This document shows positions 40-7,248 of a stretch of 38,685 nucleotides of DNA, in pieces. The stretch is from Candidatus Bathyarchaeota archaeon (GTDB lineage: Archaea; Thermoproteota; Bathyarchaeia; Bathyarchaeales; Bathycorpusculaceae). The notes beneath the pieces are model-generated. The model saw only the letters and a program-made list of their open reading frames with translations. It searched no databases and was not told where the DNA came from. A program made the position numbers and the translations under genes. Each line of letters starts with the position of its first letter. Positions within the stretch are counted from its first letter, which is position 1. The stretch lies in assembly GCA_012515445.1 (NCBI GenBank), contig JAAYYI010000046.1:1-38685 (forward strand), read 5' to 3'.

Positions 40-2649
40 TTAGGGTTTTTTCCTAAGGATAAGGACTGTAGCCAAGGCTAAAGCGACAATGATTGCTATG
101 CCCATAGCGATTATGTAGGTTTCATAGGGTGGATTTGCAACTGTTGGCTGGACCGTAGAGGTAGGTGATGCTTGTTCTTCAACGACAAACGCGTTTTGTG
201 CGCGTGACCCGTAGTATCCGTTTGAGCCTTCAAAGATCGCGTAGACCTGGTATTCGCCTGCAATGTCTGGTGTCCATGTGTAGCTAAAGAAGCCCTCAGA
301 ACTGCTGGTGGTTGTGCCTATTGTGCGGTAGTTGCCGTTTGAGTCGATGACGTTGATGCTTACTTGTACTCCGCTTGCGTTTGTGGGTCTGGTGAATTGC
401 TTGTAGACGTATAGCATCCAGTCTGACATTGAATCATCTGAGACAGCTGCGACTCCATTGGGGAAGCGTATCTTGACTTTTTCGTCTGCTGTGCCCGGCG
501 AGACGTCTGTTACGGTTCCTTTGATGGTTACTGCTTTTCCGTATTCAACGCTTGTATCTGGCGCTGAGACTGTGGTTGCTGTGGCTCCTTTTCCGATACC
601 GTACACCATCTGGTTGTATGAATCCATTGTAGCGATGATGCTGTCGCCCATTACTGCACTTCCGCCCCAGTCGGTCTGTCGGAATAATCCCGCCACTTGC
701 CAGATGACTTCGCCGGTTGTGGCATTGAGGCATACGAATGGTGCGCCGCGTGGCTGTGGCTGGTTGACTGAGTGTTCGCTTTGTCCGAGGTAGATTTTGC
801 CGTCTGCTATGATGCGTGGTCGTAGTGATGACCAGTAGTCTGACCATAGGGTTTCTGACCATGGATCTTTGTAGGTGTAGTTCCATAGTAGGTTGCCGGT
901 TTTTGCGTCGTAGGCGTACATTATACCGCTCATACCATTGGAGTAGAGTATGTGATTGTAGATGCGTGGGTACATTGCGAAGATGTCTAGATAGTTCTGT
1001 GCCGGTGTTGGTCCCCAAACTAGGTTGCCGTTATCAATGCTGTATGCCCAGAATTGTCGTAGTTCTTTTGACCAGAGTACTATGACTCTATCGTCTTGGC
1101 TGCCGGTTGAAACGGATAAAGTTACGTTGCCTGCTGGTGCTGCGATGGTTTTGTTGAATTTCAAAGCGCCTGTCTTTGCGTCAATACCCCAGAGTACGAA
1201 GGGTGCATCGTTTAGAGTGATAACTGTGAACATGCCGCTGGTTTGAAGTCGCTGATAGCCTACGATAACGTCGTCTGCGTAGACCAGTTGGGCGCTTCCA
1301 AGTAATCCTTTGGGTATTGTTATGTTGTGTGTGAAGCCGTTGTAGCCGAATGGTGTTGCGTAGGTTACGGGGCATTTGCCTTGTGCGTTTATAATTTTAC
1401 CCTGTGGCTGGTATGAACCGAACATGGGGCTGTTTTCTGTTGTTCCCCAGTATGCGTCGATGACAGATGACGAGTTCCAGATAGTCATGTAGCCTGCTTG
1501 CTGGTTTATGGTGTAGATCATTATTTCTCCGTTAGGTCCATACTGGCGTGTTCCGGAAGGCATGTTCTGGTATTCAAACAGCCAGCGTCCGGTGAATGGG
1601 TCAAAGGCTTCAAGTGTTGACGAGGCTCCACCGAAGAATCCGCCTGAAACACCGCAGAACAGAATCGGGTAGACTCCTTGGGTGTTGTAGCTCTTCCAGT
1701 ACATTACTTGACCGTATTGTGGTACCACGCGGGATCCGTTGGGGTCATAGAGGGCTTTTTCCCATAATGTTTCGCCTGTGTGTATGTCTACTGCGACGAT
1801 CCAGTTGTCAACTTTTTTAGCGCCGACTAAGTTTGTGCCCATTGTGCTGACTGATTCGCCTACGCTGTCAAACTTTTGATAGATTAATACGCCCATGATT
1901 ACTAGAGAGTTGCTGAATTTTCCTTCATATGCGTCGCCTGGAAATACAGCTGCCGGCTCAGATATGCCGCTACCGCCAGCTAAGCCACCGATTTGTAGCT
2001 GCTTTTGCCATATTATGTGTGCGGTTTCTGGTGCGTCATCTTGGCCTAGAGTTTCTGCGCCGCCGTAGCTGCCTGGTGAAAGCCAGCTTCCAGAAACAGA
2101 CCACCATTCTCTGATTTGGCTATCTATTGGTCTGCTCCAGTACTCTGTTGGCAGAGAGAAACCTGGCCAGAACTTGGAGGCTTCAGCGCCGACAATAAGG
2201 TTCAGTACTTCGCTATCGGATGCTTCGTAGTAGCATTTCACGTTCTGTTGTCCTAAGAAGAAATCGTTTGTGCTATAGTTGTACCATTGAGCAGGGAAGT
2301 GGGTTTGAAGTTTGTAGGTGCCTTCTTGGTCTGGTACTAGGACAGTGCCTGTGCCGCCTGTTGAGTCGGTGTTAAATGGACCAAGTGTTAGAGTGGTGCC
2401 GTCTGGTTTGGTTACGGTTACGGTTAATCCGAACCATTTATCCTGTGTTATCTGTAGAGCTTCGGATATTCCTAAGTGCACTAGAACTTCTTCGCCGACT
2501 GCCACGGGGTTGGGTGTTGCGCCGACGTATGCATAGGTTTTTTTGGTTCCTGTGTAGCTTTGTCCTTGGACTGGTGTTATTGCCATCGTTGTTAGCATAC
2601 TTGCAATCATAATAAGACCGAAAATAGTTGCTATTTTTTGCGTTTTCAT
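40..2649 (-). CDS. Secreted, membrane-anchored PQQ-like beta-propeller protein (paralogue 1)
   Basis: A predicted cell-surface protein of 869 aa. It has an N-terminal signal peptide (about residues 1-29, ending near VQGQ), then an Ig-like segment. The large central region has PQQ/WD-like blades, recognisable from repeats such as AVDIHTGETLW, AYDAKTGNLLW and LNATTGEVIW. A second Ig-like domain follows at about 690-825, then a Ser/Thr/Pro linker, one transmembrane helix and a basic tail, LRKKP. The blade motif is that of the pyrrolo-quinoline quinone propeller superfamily, but archaeal members of this type are usually structural or binding proteins and no enzyme activity can be claimed. The start ATG is preceded by GGAG 10 nt upstream. 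The gene is the tandem paralogue of the 847-aa gene at 3368-5911 and shares its 5' leader. An anchored surface or S-layer-associated role is inferred. Confidence 0.85.
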   Translation of the reverse strand: MKTQKIATIFGLIMIASMLTTMAITPVQGQSYTGTKKTYAYVGATPNPVAVGEEVLVHLGISEALQITQDKWFGLTVTVTKPDGTTLTLGPFNTDSTGGTGTVLVPDQEGTYKLQTHFPAQWYNYSTNDFFLGQQNVKCYYEASDSEVLNLIVGAEASKFWPGFSLPTEYWSRPIDSQIREWWSVSGSWLSPGSYGGAETLGQDDAPETAHIIWQKQLQIGGLAGGSGISEPAAVFPGDAYEGKFSNSLVIMGVLIYQKFDSVGESVSTMGTNLVGAKKVDNWIVAVDIHTGETLWEKALYDPNGSRVVPQYGQVMYWKSYNTQGVYPILFCGVSGGFFGGASSTLEAFDPFTGRWLFEYQNMPSGTRQYGPNGEIMIYTINQQAGYMTIWNSSSVIDAYWGTTENSPMFGSYQPQGKIINAQGKCPVTYATPFGYNGFTHNITIPKGLLGSAQLVYADDVIVGYQRLQTSGMFTVITLNDAPFVLWGIDAKTGALKFNKTIAAPAGNVTLSVSTGSQDDRVIVLWSKELRQFWAYSIDNGNLVWGPTPAQNYLDIFAMYPRIYNHILYSNGMSGIMYAYDAKTGNLLWNYTYKDPWSETLWSDYWSSLRPRIIADGKIYLGQSEHSVNQPQPRGAPFVCLNATTGEVIWQVAGLFRQTDWGGSAVMGDSIIATMDSYNQMVYGIGKGATATTVSAPDTSVEYGKAVTIKGTVTDVSPGTADEKVKIRFPNGVAAVSDDSMSDWMLYVYKQFTRPTNASGVQVSINVIDSNGNYRTIGTTTSSSEGFFSYTWTPDIAGEYQVYAIFEGSNGYYGSRAQNAFVVEEQASPTSTVQPTVANPPYETYIIAMGIAIIVALALATVLILRKKP

Positions 2650-2668
2650 TCCATTTTTTCTCCTATCG

Positions 2669-2760
2669 GCAGAAGCATAGCTAACGCTGATTCCGATAGT
2701 GTGCTAACCAACTGTTTTTATTGCTGATTAGCCAGTGAAAAAGCTAACTAGCCGTTGCCT
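2669..2760 (-). ncRNA. Conserved 5' leader RNA of propeller gene 1
   Basis: This transcribed leader, read on the minus strand, contains two blocks that align without gaps to the leader of the paralogue. Block 2724-2760 matches 6000-6036 at 27 of 37 positions. Block 2669-2707 matches 5942-5980 at 31 of 39 and ends in the invariant TAGCTATGCTTCTGC. Block 1 forms the helix GTTAGC/GCTAAT. In the other copy this is ATTAGC/GCTAAT, so the closing pair changes from G-U to A-U and is preserved. A second stem, CTATCGG/CCGATAG (2693-2699 with 2663-2669), runs into the Shine-Dalgarno GGAG in this copy only. A cis-regulatory RNA is inferred; descent from a recent duplication is the alternative. Confidence 0.5.
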
Positions 2761-2792
2761 CTGTCCAATAGTGTGCCTTTATGAAGCGTTTT

Positions 2793-2802
2793 GTTTATAA
2801 AA
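2793..2802 (-). promoter_or_regulatory. TATA-like element for propeller gene 1
   Basis: On the minus strand the sequence reads TTTATAAAC, about 145 bp upstream of the start codon. The same element sits at the equivalent place before the paralogue (6064-6073). It places the transcription start just upstream of the conserved leader blocks, so the leader is expected to be transcribed. Confidence 0.5.
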
Positions 2803-2890
2803 TTTGTGCAATTTTTTTAATCATAATCAAATTTTTTTAAACGATTAATGTCAAAGAAATGAAAAATCTGACAGCATCTAAACGGCTTTG

Positions 2891-3175
2891 ATGCCACAAA
2901 AAGAATCCGTCGTTTGTAAGAAAGAATTTTTAACCTTAACGCAAATTAGTGTAGGCATGGGAAAATGTACAAGAACCGTTGGTGAACGCCGACTCGGCAG
3001 AACCATCTACAAACTGGGCAACAGTGTAGAACTCAGCAGCAAAGAAGGAAAAGCAAAAGTAGCCGAGCAGAAATACAAGCAGAAAACCCAAACCGAACAA
3101 GGCTTTGCGTCAGATTCACCCGTCGAGAACATTCGTGACCCCTCCAACTGGAAGAAGAAGCAGCCACAACAATAA
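2891..3175 (+). CDS. Small basic hypothetical protein
   Basis: A 94-aa ORF from ATG 2891, or 72 aa from the internal ATG at 2957 (MGKCTRTVGERRLGRT). The product is hydrophilic and Lys/Gln-rich with no signal peptide, membrane helix or recognised domain, and ends in KKKQPQQ. Codon use resembles neighbouring genes and the overlapping minus-strand reading is implausible (Cys/Phe-rich), which favours this strand. Neither start has a strong ribosome-binding site. It is divergent from propeller gene 1 and is followed at 3188 by a highly structured noncoding segment. Function unknown. Confidence 0.45.
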   Translation: MPQKESVVCKKEFLTLTQISVGMGKCTRTVGERRLGRTIYKLGNSVELSSKEGKAKVAEQKYKQKTQTEQGFASDSPVENIRDPSNWKKKQPQQ

Positions 3176-3187
3176 CCTCTTTTCATC

Positions 3188-3310
3188 ATACGCTTAGCGT
3201 ATTGGTTAGGTCTGCTGGGGTATCTGGAATTTGCCATTTAGGAGAAAGAGAAAGTTACATGAAGCTGTAGCAATGTAACTGAGCCCAGAGACCTACTCAG
3301 CCCTAACCAA
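3188..3310. ncRNA. Candidate structured RNA or hairpin element
   Basis: This noncoding segment can fold into nested helices. A 6-bp hairpin, ATACGC/GCGTAT, lies at 3188-3202. A 9-bp perfect outer stem pairs TTGGTTAGG (3202-3210) with CCTAACCAA (3302-3310). It continues inward as TCT/AGA and CTGGG/CCCAG (3211-3219 with 3284-3291, one bulged G). A terminal 8-bp stem pairs AGTTACAT (3253-3260) with ATGTAACT (3273-3280). About 25 bp of nested pairing in 109 nt is hard to explain by chance. It matches no tRNA, 5S, SRP or RNase P signature that I can see. The strand is undetermined. A MITE-like element with 9-bp terminal inverted repeats is the main alternative. Confidence 0.45.
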
Positions 3311-3315
3311 CTATG

Positions 3316-3334
3316 CCTTAAAATAAAAAAAGGA
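3316..3334 (-). terminator. T-tract terminator of propeller gene 2
   Basis: Downstream of the stop codon at 3368, the minus strand reads CCTTTTTTTATTTTAAGG. Archaeal RNA polymerase terminates at such T-tracts without needing a hairpin. This is the only T-rich run between this gene and the structured segment below 3310. Confidence 0.4.
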
Positions 3335-3367
3335 AGGAAGATAGTTGTCGTTGTCGTTTTCTTCACC

Positions 3368-5911
3368 TTATGGATGCTTTCTTAGTACAAGCGCGACTAA
3401 TGCGATGACGACTATGATTGCGATGAAGAGTCCTGCGATTGCCGGGATGAAGTATAGGTCAGCTGCTGATGGCGTTATGGTTGCCTGCGGTGCGGCTGTT
3501 GCTGATGCATCTACTACGGCGATTGCTGTTTCCGACGATGATCCCCAGTATGATTCTGTGCCTCCGAAGGTTGCGATAACACAGTATTCGCCTGCGACTT
3601 CTGGAACAAACGTTACTTTGTAGTGGCCGCTTTCTTCGCTTGTTGTTGTGCCGACGACGTATGTGTTGCCGTTTGGATCGACCACACTCACGACGACTGG
3701 TACACCTGTGGCGTTGGTTGGTTTAGGCTGCTGCATGTAGACGTATTCCATCCATGCACTTTGACTTGAATCAGAGACTGCTGGGACACCGTTGGGGAAC
3801 CTTGCTGTTCTGTCTGAGTCTTTTGTACCTGCAGAAATATCCATCACTGTACCTTCGACTAAAACCAAGTTTCCTTGTTCTGAAACCTTTGGTGAAGCTG
3901 TAACTGCTGTTTGTGTTGGGCCTTTGCCTATCGAGTAGATTTGGCTGTCAAAGCAGTTCCACTGTATCAGGTAGCCATCGGCTGCGGCTGTTGGCACACG
4001 CCCAGTGAAGCTTAGTATGCTCCATACTAGTTCGCCTGTTGTGGTGTTGATTGCCAGCTGCTGTGCGCCTGGATAGACTGGTGGGTCATACATGTGGCTT
4101 TCTGAGATGAAGAGTTTGCCGTCTGCAATCATGCCGTTGTACCAGACGGGGTAGATGCCATAGCCAGTGTTGTATCCTGAACTTCTAGGTACATAAGTCC
4201 AGTCGATGTTTCCGGTTGCTAAGTCAACTGCATTGACGTATCCGCCGAAGCCGAAAATGAACATTTTGCCGTATGCAAACTCGGCAGCTATTGATATGTG
4301 GTCCCATGCGTTTCCCTGCATTTTTACTGGTCCCCATATTTGGTCACCGGTTGTCAGCGAGTAACCATAGGCTTCGTTCGTATCTTTGTTATGCAGTACG
4401 TATACTTTGTCGCCCGCACCCATTACCGATACATCTTGGAGTTTAGGTATAGTTTGGTTCTTGGGACCCCAGAGTAAAGCGCCTGTTTTCGCGTCAAAGC
4501 CTGCAGTCACTTGAGAGCCGTAGCTCAGCGAAGAGAACATGTTGTATGTTGGCGCATACCTGAGTACGATTACGTCGTGGTCGCGTATTGCTATTCCACC
4601 TTGAGATATTGCGGCTGGTAGAGCGACGGTCCACTCGATTCCTTCGCTCCAGTCTTTAGTGCCGGAGGGACGCATTGTTATCCCGTCTGAGCCCAGCATC
4701 AGTCTGCTGGAGTTCCACATTGTAAGGTTGCCGCCGCTTGTGTAGTAGCCAAGAAGGCTGCCTTTCTGGTCGGAATCTTCAGAGTCGTCGATTAAGAACG
4801 CTGGATTCTGGATGCCAGTGATGTTCATCAAATATTCGCCGCTGTAAGCGTCGTAGACTGACATGTATTCTGGGTTGCCAAAGAATGACGCTGAGGGACA
4901 ACTGTATAGGAATGCCCATGAGCCGAATTCCTGTATAGATTTGAAGCGCATTACTTGACCCATGCGGATAACCTCATTTCCTGATTCACCTGCTGATCTT
5001 GTCCAGAGGGTTTCGCCTGTGCGTATATCGACAGCTACCCAAGCTGTTTTTGCGGCGCTGGGGCCTGAGTATTCAGTATAGTAGAGTACTCCGTTGAGGA
5101 TTATCGGCTCGAAGAAGTTGGTGGCGATTGTAGTTGTCATGTAGTTGCTCATTTGGTCGTTGGGTATTGGAAGTCCCGGTTGGCCTCCGAAGTGAGTCGG
5201 TTTAACCCACATTATGTGTCCAGTGTTTGGCGCTGTTCCGTATGGCTGGAAATTGCCGGTAGCATCATAGCTGCCAGTGGTTGCAAAAGCTGGTGCTGCT
5301 AGCCCATACCAGTTAGAGCCAAGTGTAGCCCAGAAATAGTTCTGTGCCTGAATTGGTCGTGACCAGTACTCGGTTGGAAGCGGGGCAGTGTTGAACATTG
5401 GTATAGGTTCCGCTTGAACAGTAAGAGTGATGGTATCACTTACGCTTGGTTGGTAGGTGATGTTGTAGAAGGTTGGTGGACCGAAGAAGTTCATAACGTT
5501 TTCTTCAGCATGCTGTCCAGGGTAGGTGGCTTTGAATGTGTAGTTGCCGGTTTGGTCAGGTGTAAAGTTAGTCCATGTGCCGCCTGTGCTGTCAGATTTG
5601 CCCATATCTAGGGTTCGTTTGGTTCCATCGGGTGCTGTGACTTCAACTTTGATGCCTTCAAACATAGTTCCTGTTCCCATGAATCCAGCGGTGATTGGTG
5701 GTTTAGTCATGAATGCATTGACTAGCGCTTCTTGACCGGAGCCTATTGGGTTCGGAGCGACGTTAATCATCAGAAAAGTGGGAACTTCGGTAGCTACAGA
5801 GCCGTCGGTTTGTGCGCTAATGAGCGGCAGAGCAGAAAGCATGCTTATTATTAAAAGCAGAGTTGTAGTGAACACAGCCAACTTTTGAGAAATTTTCCGT
5901 TTTAACTTCAT
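3368..5911 (-). CDS. Secreted, membrane-anchored PQQ-like beta-propeller protein (paralogue 2)
   Basis: An 847-aa predicted surface protein with the same architecture as the gene at 40-2649. It has a signal peptide (about residues 1-33, ending LISAQ), an N-terminal Ig-like domain beginning near APNPIGSGQEALV, and propeller blades with AVDIRTGETLW, GFDAKTGALLW, AVDLATGNIDW and AINTTTGELVW. A C-terminal Ig-like domain follows (about 675-800), then one transmembrane helix and the tail LRKHP. Shared landmarks include the phrase PTEYWSRPI after the first Ig-like domain and FPNGV(A/P)AVSD in the C-terminal domain. GGAG lies 8 nt before the ATG. The two genes probably arose by tandem duplication and now flank a small ORF. 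Catalysis is not implied; ligand binding or surface-layer function is inferred. Confidence 0.85.
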   Translation of the reverse strand: MKLKRKISQKLAVFTTTLLLIISMLSALPLISAQTDGSVATEVPTFLMINVAPNPIGSGQEALVNAFMTKPPITAGFMGTGTMFEGIKVEVTAPDGTKRTLDMGKSDSTGGTWTNFTPDQTGNYTFKATYPGQHAEENVMNFFGPPTFYNITYQPSVSDTITLTVQAEPIPMFNTAPLPTEYWSRPIQAQNYFWATLGSNWYGLAAPAFATTGSYDATGNFQPYGTAPNTGHIMWVKPTHFGGQPGLPIPNDQMSNYMTTTIATNFFEPIILNGVLYYTEYSGPSAAKTAWVAVDIRTGETLWTRSAGESGNEVIRMGQVMRFKSIQEFGSWAFLYSCPSASFFGNPEYMSVYDAYSGEYLMNITGIQNPAFLIDDSEDSDQKGSLLGYYTSGGNLTMWNSSRLMLGSDGITMRPSGTKDWSEGIEWTVALPAAISQGGIAIRDHDVIVLRYAPTYNMFSSLSYGSQVTAGFDAKTGALLWGPKNQTIPKLQDVSVMGAGDKVYVLHNKDTNEAYGYSLTTGDQIWGPVKMQGNAWDHISIAAEFAYGKMFIFGFGGYVNAVDLATGNIDWTYVPRSSGYNTGYGIYPVWYNGMIADGKLFISESHMYDPPVYPGAQQLAINTTTGELVWSILSFTGRVPTAAADGYLIQWNCFDSQIYSIGKGPTQTAVTASPKVSEQGNLVLVEGTVMDISAGTKDSDRTARFPNGVPAVSDSSQSAWMEYVYMQQPKPTNATGVPVVVSVVDPNGNTYVVGTTTSEESGHYKVTFVPEVAGEYCVIATFGGTESYWGSSSETAIAVVDASATAAPQATITPSAADLYFIPAIAGLFIAIIVVIALVALVLRKHP

Positions 5912-5941
5912 TTTCTATTCTCCATTTTTCTTTTTGGTTGA

Positions 5942-6036
5942 GCAGAAGCATAGCTATCGCTAATTATGATGCAATGCTAAATAGCGGCTGCAGTTGCCAC
6001 CTATTAGCAAGCAAAATAGCTAATCAGCCACTGCCT
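5942..6036 (-). ncRNA. Conserved 5' leader RNA of propeller gene 2
   Basis: This is the counterpart of the leader at 2669-2760. Block 6000-6036 contains a perfect ATTAGC/GCTAAT helix around a 10-nt loop. Block 5942-5980 begins TTAGCA and ends TAGCTATGCTTCTGC, identical to the other copy in that stretch. It also contains TAGC-GATA-GCTA, a small hairpin. The blocks lie 19 nt apart here and 16 nt apart in the other leader. The stem that overlaps the Shine-Dalgarno region in copy 1 is not conserved here. Confidence 0.5.
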
Positions 6037-6063
6037 GCCCGAAATCCGTATTCGTCTCGTTTG

Positions 6064-6073
6064 CTTTATAAAA
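6064..6073 (-). promoter_or_regulatory. TATA-like element for propeller gene 2
   Basis: The minus strand reads TTTTATAAAG about 155 bp before the start codon and about 35 bp before the conserved leader. It matches the element before the paralogous gene. Confidence 0.5.
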
Positions 6074-6276
6074 CTTACCACAAAATAGGAAATTATGGAA
6101 ATTACTCAGGAGTTGAACGATGGTTTATCTAATTTTTTGGCACTCGCAGGTTTAACCGACAGGCACCCCCATTTTTTAAGCATTATATGGAAATTAATAG
6201 TGCACGCTGGGAAGAACTTAAAAAAGGATACCACCATCTGTTTCATTAGACATAGGTATTAAGGGAGGGGTAGGCA

Positions 6277-7248
6277 GTGAGTCAACCAATAGATGCGATA
6301 GATGCAAAAATAATCAAGGACCTTTTAGCTAATGCACGCAAAAATTTTGTTGACATCGCCTCGGAATGCAACCTGTCAACTGCCGCCATAAGTGACCGTT
6401 TTAGTCAACTTCGAAAAGCAGGCGTTATAGTTGGCTCCACTATTCAAGTTAATCATAAGATGCTAGGACATGGAGCTCTCTGCAATGTATTGGTAAACGT
6501 GCATCACCAAGAGATTGATCAAGTAGTTGATTTCATAAAAAAACTACCGTATATGACGTCGTTAATTGCTCCAGGCCCTAAAAACAGTGTTGGCTTAGTC
6601 GCAGGCTTTAACGATATACGTGATGTAGGAAAATTCAAGGAAAGCATTAGAAGAAACAAGTATGTAACGGATGTTAAAGTTGAAGTCTGGACAGACATAA
6701 AGAACATGCCTGAACGGCTTAAAGTATCTGAGCAAAGCACTTCAACTGAAGAAAACGTAGAGTTATCTGTAGAGAGCCAAAAGACGGATTACGCGCTAGA
6801 TGATATGGATCGTAAAATTATCGACAAGCTACTGGCCGATAGCATGCAGCCGTTCGGTAAAATCGCCAAAGAGATCGGCACCTCCATAAACACTGTATCC
6901 AGGAAATACAAGAAATTAAACGCGCATAAGGTAATTAAGCCGACAATCCAGCTGAACCTTACGAAAATAGGCTACAACGCCGTAGTAAGCTTCCCGATCA
7001 CCTTCGCCTCAGAAACTGAGCCCAATGATGTGATGAAAGAGATTTTAACGTTAAAGGACAGTGTGCTGTTGATTAAAACAAGCGGCGAAGTCGACTTATT
7101 CGCCTACGTAATGCTTAGAGACCTAAACCAGCTGCTTGAAACACAAAAGCAGGTTTCACTGATCAAAGGAATCTCGAGGATGGATATGAAAATCTTCCCA
7201 GTATTGGTACCTTGGCCAGCCCTAGGCGAATACATCTCAACTTTCTAA
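6277..7248 (+). CDS. Tandem Lrp/AsnC-family transcriptional regulator
   Basis: A 323-aa DNA-binding protein that appears to contain two Lrp/AsnC units in one chain. The first helix-turn-helix is at about residues 6-55 (IDAKIIKDLLANARKNFVDI), followed by a ligand-binding-type RAM-like region to about 145. A second HTH begins near 174 (DDMDRKIIDKLLADS), followed by another alpha/beta domain to the C-terminus. Ordinary Lrp proteins are about 150 aa with one HTH, so this is a fused or duplicated form; such two-HTH forms are known in archaea. It starts with GTG behind a good ribosome-binding site, GGGAGGGG. It is divergent from the secreted propeller gene and precedes uvrB by 133 bp, but its targets cannot be told from sequence. 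Confidence 0.8.
   Translation: MSQPIDAIDAKIIKDLLANARKNFVDIASECNLSTAAISDRFSQLRKAGVIVGSTIQVNHKMLGHGALCNVLVNVHHQEIDQVVDFIKKLPYMTSLIAPGPKNSVGLVAGFNDIRDVGKFKESIRRNKYVTDVKVEVWTDIKNMPERLKVSEQSTSTEENVELSVESQKTDYALDDMDRKIIDKLLADSMQPFGKIAKEIGTSINTVSRKYKKLNAHKVIKPTIQLNLTKIGYNAVVSFPITFASETEPNDVMKEILTLKDSVLLIKTSGEVDLFAYVMLRDLNQLLETQKQVSLIKGISRMDMKIFPVLVPWPALGEYISTF

Follow-up and report, generated by a model that had tools for sequence, protein, structure and literature searches.

Results

The window, the whole stretch of 38,685 nucleotides analysed here, comes from a 2.44 Mb Bathyarchaeia genome and carries two genes, p1 and p2, that encode secreted PQQ-type beta-propeller proteins. Their TATA boxes and Shine-Dalgarno (SD) sites were read from the sequence:

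40..2649, minus strand: gene p1, an 869 aa secreted PQQ-type beta-propeller with an Ig-like C-terminal part
2660..2663, minus strand: SD site GGAG of p1, just 3′ of the leader hairpin
2794..2801, minus strand: TATA box TTTATAAA of p1
3368..5911, minus strand: gene p2, an 847 aa secreted PQQ-type beta-propeller with Ig-like parts
5920..5923, minus strand: SD site GGAG of p2, separated from the leader hairpin by an A-rich linker
6065..6072, minus strand: TATA box TTTATAAA of p2

Matches to p2 number 27 in the window's genome and between 4 and 42 in each member of the genus. The p1 and p2 proteins are 32% identical by BLASTP and lie far apart on a tree of 128 family proteins. Over aligned codons, protein identity was 35% and third-position identity 38%, while fourfold sites at conserved residues were 40% identical, which is near saturation.

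The two leaders

A sequence-only reading of this DNA had proposed a leader RNA before each gene, at 2669-2760 and 5942-6036. Both positions, which lie on the minus strand, and the alignment were as claimed: local alignment gave 65 identities in 92 positions (71%) with one 3-nt gap and a score of 69, whereas scores from 2000 shuffles averaged 19.9 and never exceeded 43. The invariant 15-mer TAGCTATGCTTCTGC was found exactly in both leaders and nowhere else in the genome, where matches at one or two mismatches occurred at about chance level. The matching TATA elements were also borne out, with the same octamer about 30 nt upstream of each leader; transcription of p1 is predicted to start about 25-30 nt downstream of its box.

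The same reading held that the proteins had diverged much more than the leaders, and that synonymous identity equal to leader identity would point to a recent duplication. The comparison with third codon positions upheld the first point (leaders 71%; third positions, fourfold sites and proteins as above) and gave no such equality, at 40% versus 71%. Orthologues of p2 with 83-84% protein identity were only 47-54% identical at fourfold sites, and the highest fourfold-site identity among all pairs examined was 59%. The p1/p2 value equals that of old orthologue pairs, and the leaders are therefore more alike than neutral sites in any examined pair, which excludes a recent gene duplication.

Searches for further copies of the window sequence returned little. 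The exact motif is limited to the window's own genome, and the 32 genus genomes gave only scattered one-mismatch matches. A third copy in the same genome, TAGCTATTCTTCTGC on contig C56, was rejected because the stretch examined held no arrangement of TATA box, leader and hairpin. The pattern TTGGGCAA...TTGCTCAA was likewise set aside: only two of its eight matches were leaders, both of them those of the p1 orthologues themselves. On inspection of the sequence, an upstream open reading frame from the ATG in GCTATGCTT was also rejected: it lacks an SD site, sits within the stem, stops at a different place in each leader and does not occur in the orthologues.

Folding of the window leaders

Each leader is predicted to fold as one long imperfect stem-loop, and together they form an unusually long, related pair:

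2663..2771, minus strand: p1 leader hairpin, -40 to -44 kcal/mol
2669..2683, minus strand: TAGCTATGCTTCTGC, the 3′ arm of the basal stem in the p1 leader
5940..6040, minus strand: p2 leader hairpin, about -41 kcal/mol
5942..5956, minus strand: TAGCTATGCTTCTGC, the 3′ arm of the basal stem in the p2 leader

The p1 hairpin gave fold z-scores of -5.0 and -6.6 with a basal pairing probability of about 1; the p2 hairpin was less exceptional (z = -1.8 to -2.7). In p1 the pairing of TAGCTATGCTTCTGC was near certain; in p2 it was less uniform. Both hairpins start about 30 nt past the TATA box, at the predicted mRNA 5′ end. In both leaders the SD site lies 3′ of the hairpin, with only its first G touching the last pair in p1.

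One structural claim was not sustained. In both single-sequence ensembles, a helix (G/A)TTAGC...GCTAAT in the first alignment block formed with a probability of about 0, since one long hairpin takes up the entire leader. The helix appeared only in the two-sequence consensus fold of a MAFFT alignment, with no compensatory change in the helix.

Orthologues in related genomes

Orthologues of both genes were found in genomes G010 and G018, of p2 in G013 and of p1 in G016. The particular leader sequence of the window is not conserved among them, being absent from orthologues of 74-84% protein identity. In all four genomes a hairpin nonetheless stood at the corresponding place in the orthologue leaders; its basal stem, UUG(G/A)GC...GCUCAA, differed from that of the window leaders, and its loop was short in some and up to about 70 nt long in others. 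Across the four genomes the stem can be written UUGRRC...GYUCAA. These data indicate that position and structure persist while the sequence turns over. A structured leader thus stands before both paralogues, more similar than their coding regions; in the wider set, the part of the original proposal that holds is the presence of structured leaders before homologous secreted-protein genes, and the part that does not is the exact sequence. The conserved feature is a predicted 5′-terminal hairpin whose basal-stem sequence is unlike the window's.

The gene order around these leaders differs between genomes. The pairs orf95-p1 and lrp-p2 are swapped in the window (2669-7248) relative to L064/L065 of G010/G018, which is a small local rearrangement.

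A covariance model of the recurring stem

A covariance model, R1, was built from 11 hairpins and searched in the 32 genus genomes. About 15 matches outside the training set were found in the genus at E ≤ 0.1, of which 11 immediately preceded a family gene, at 53-75 nt from the start in nearly every case; a long-loop copy in G013 lay 95 nt before one. A twelfth match (L248, G022:C92) precedes a frame-disrupted, likely family gene start, possibly a decayed family copy. An order-wide search of 163 genomes with stricter filters gave only two matches outside the genus, both with E near 0.006 and neither before a family gene. Matches were concentrated in a few genomes (seven in G005, five in G022 and four in G012).

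In 27 aligned R1 copies, 92.5% of pairing cells were standard pairs, compared with 38-50% when the arms were slid. Double changes occurred at 8 of 13 pairs, in 25 cells versus 7.1 in shuffles, so that structure was retained under sequence change, as expected for a 5′-terminal stabilising stem-loop. One C-G pair was invariant in all 27 copies and the neighbouring outer pairs were nearly so, while loops ranged from a few to about 70 nt. Stems of this subclass combine many G-U pairs with a recurring sequence. As to how such counts should be read, alignment A2 was chosen from leaders having hairpins, and alignment A4 was fitted to structure, so that its counts lean toward structure. When run on the window, R1 recognised neither leader; the link of the window leaders to this subclass rests on orthology, position and overall shape.

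Enrichment across the family and strand bias

Genes and TATA boxes were called in about 120 stretches of related genomes. Among leaders of 24-130 nt, a fold z-score below -2 was found for 54% of family genes (n = 70) and 6% of other genes (n = 157), p = 7 × 10−14, although p values are only indicative, given a simple TATA caller and the non-independence of paralogues. A fixed-window fold test made without promoter calls agreed, at 25% for the family versus 3% for other genes (p = 4 × 10−11); among other genes that probably encode a signal peptide, it gave 5%. In 30 of 45 family leaders with z < -1.5, the first stem began 30-33 nt after the TATA box, which in structured family leaders is about the predicted transcription start. 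The hairpin is not universal: about one third of family genes have a leader too short for it, and when 16 further family leaders were examined in the window's own genome, most of them had no strong hairpin.

In unselected family leaders, the transcribed strand folded better by 1.6 kcal/mol (p = 0.016); other genes had no such bias. A strand-symmetric scan gave 59 G-T against 32 A-C pairs in family stems (p = 0.006), and 78 against 79 in control stems. The excess of G-U pairs, the strand bias and the non-constant spacing of the arms favour an RNA structure over a DNA palindrome.

Similar leaders before diverged paralogues

When the R1 type and the window form were placed on the protein tree, at least eight changes were required for 14 rows. 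Leaders in G005 were 95-98% identical before proteins of only 41-47% identity, and in G024 leaders of 95% identity preceded proteins 38% identical. For pairs below 50% protein identity, leaders were more alike within than between genomes (p = 4 × 10−4), on a measure with a high baseline of about 0.79. Leaders with a common stem often have the unpaired linker in common as well, and in some cases the promoter, an indication that the block was copied as a whole. Since the orthologues lack the window sequence, the window pair too looks like leader copying within one lineage; it would fit the pattern as a one-lineage leader form common to two distant paralogues.

Other elements near family genes

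Lrp/AsnC-type regulator genes lie divergently beside p2 and its orthologues (window 6277-7248; L025, L031, L064, L065), and two other family genes are preceded by sequence that resembles the beginning of such a gene. A sequence close to TTGTCTCAAC-N5-GTGGTTACAAGG, probably a DNA site for a regulator, precedes the TATA box of five paralogues in the window's genome (L048, L051, L053, L057, L058). Other family genes (L102, L108, L123, L056, L170) share an inverted repeat near CTCACGATAGGTGAGTGAG, immediately before the promoter.

A leader hairpin was also seen on Alba genes. Its outer arms GTAACGTT...AACGTTAC are conserved and its interior is variable (L231-L239), with nine copies in seven genomes (G005, G006, G007, G010, G013, G015, G021) and none in the window's own. 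Alba is typically an abundant protein, and a comparable hairpin on its genes fits a stability role.

Discussion

Computation places a hairpin mostly 30-33 nt after the TATA box, enriched in one family, covarying within a subclass and biased toward the RNA strand. We infer its 5′-terminal position and a role in mRNA stabilisation. Most likely, the hairpin on secreted beta-propeller mRNAs protects or controls these messages. The specific reading that we prefer, and hold with middling confidence, is of an undescribed 5′-terminal stem-loop that putatively stabilises mRNA and has been copied between diverged paralogues.

Under this reading, the leaders would be 5′-terminal stem-loops on the mRNAs of a large Bathyarchaeia family of secreted PQQ-type beta-propellers. 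The hairpin would start at the predicted transcription start or a few nucleotides away and end before the SD site, usually followed by an A-rich linker, its structure and position being retained as sequence and loop length vary. Its main effect may be to shield the mRNA 5′ end from 5′-to-3′ decay, raising the yield of the secreted proteins with the ribosome site left exposed. Copying of the promoter-leader block between paralogues would then account for the likeness of leaders before diverged paralogues within one genome.

Some elements of this mechanism have precedents. Bacterial mRNAs can be stabilised by a 5′-end hairpin (PMC3997798), and Sulfolobus aCPSF2 is a 5′-3′ exonuclease (PMC3792030). 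An aCPSF2-type enzyme is the candidate decay nuclease here: beta-CASP nucleases were present in 13 of 13 genomes checked, most of which encode a 420-460 aa protein besides one of 640-700 aa, and by its size the shorter form could be aCPSF2-like. RNase J was absent from the genomes of the 21 relatives searched and was ruled out as the decay enzyme on that ground. With the SD site outside the stem, a stabilising or protein-binding element fits better than a switch. A riboswitch or RNA thermometer was rejected on this observation, together with the lack of a T-run after the hairpin and of any Rfam match.

A pure stability element would need neither the many G-U pairs nor the recurring stem sequence of the R1 subclass, and this counts against the stabilisation reading; the recurring sequence leaves room for a specific binding factor. 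The hairpin might instead be the site at which a trans-acting RNA-binding protein, or a small RNA, controls a set of paralogues together, the stem sequence common within a genome marking membership of the regulon. The recurrence of UUGRRC...GYUCAA before paralogues far apart on the tree, its concentration in a few genomes, and the near-invariance of the outer pairs around one fixed C-G pair while loops vary would all be expected. Set against them are the shared linkers and promoters, which block copying would explain, the loss of the recurring stem from the window's own pair, and the fact that no candidate binding protein was identified. We regard such a regulon as possible but rather doubtful. 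A combined form, in which each lineage has its own stem, spread by leader copying and read as a recognition code by a dedicated RNA-binding factor, seems unlikely; if true, it would amount to a regulon at the RNA level, one that undergoes concerted evolution and varies from species to species.

Improbable, in our view, is that the inverted repeats are DNA operators for a transcription factor, for example of the Lrp/AsnC type. Archaeal repressors often bind over the transcription start, and the Lrp/AsnC-like gene divergent from p2 (6277-7248) adjoins it both in the window and in G010 and G018. An operator would be expected to have constant half-site spacing, yet loop length ranges between a few nt and about 70 nt among orthologues and paralogues alike; equal complementarity of both strands is contradicted by the G-T and A-C counts, and the strand bias and one-sided G-U changes are unexpected for a DNA palindrome. 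Several paralogues, moreover, have separate conserved motifs upstream of the TATA box. Equally improbable is a reading in which recombination between neighbouring genes alone made the window leaders alike, with no selected function: p1 and p2 are adjacent, their leader identity exceeds synonymous identity even between orthologues, the orthologues do not share the sequence, and leaders are copied elsewhere in the genus, but this would leave unexplained both the family-specific enrichment and the same-position hairpins with compensatory changes in other genomes, and recombination does not preclude function.

The means by which archaea protect or control single mRNAs are little known. The leader element described here covaries and extends across one very large secreted-protein family, with some 4-42 genes per genome, in a widespread class of uncultured archaea, and its leaders appear to move as modules between diverged paralogues. 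It offers concrete sequences for asking whether archaea stabilise mRNA by 5′-terminal hairpins. As a general idea, the undescribed structured leader first proposed is supported and extended, its function being inferred. Neither the window leaders nor related copies matched Rfam 15 (gathering threshold and E = 2), and a literature search found no description of the element, in line with the original suggestion that it is undescribed.

Among known systems, the candidate structured RNAs and ribosomal-protein leaders of PMC2864571 and PMC7247131 are likewise covarying cis leaders found by comparative genomics, from which the present element differs in having no match in Rfam 15. Methanolobus psychrophilus 5′ UTRs (PMC5378194) are also archaeal leaders with a predicted stem-loop; there the stem masks the ribosome site, whereas in the window leaders the SD site is outside it. 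The E. coli ompA and papA and B. subtilis aprE leaders (PMC3997798) differ in that the host here is archaeal, with RNase J not detected in 21 genomes, that a recurring stem here spans a multigene family, and that stabilisation here is putative. The two kinds of leader nevertheless share a hairpin at or near the 5′ end, which for the archaeal leaders is the predicted one, a free ribosome site, a structure that is kept while its sequence varies, and a place on genes for secreted or surface proteins.
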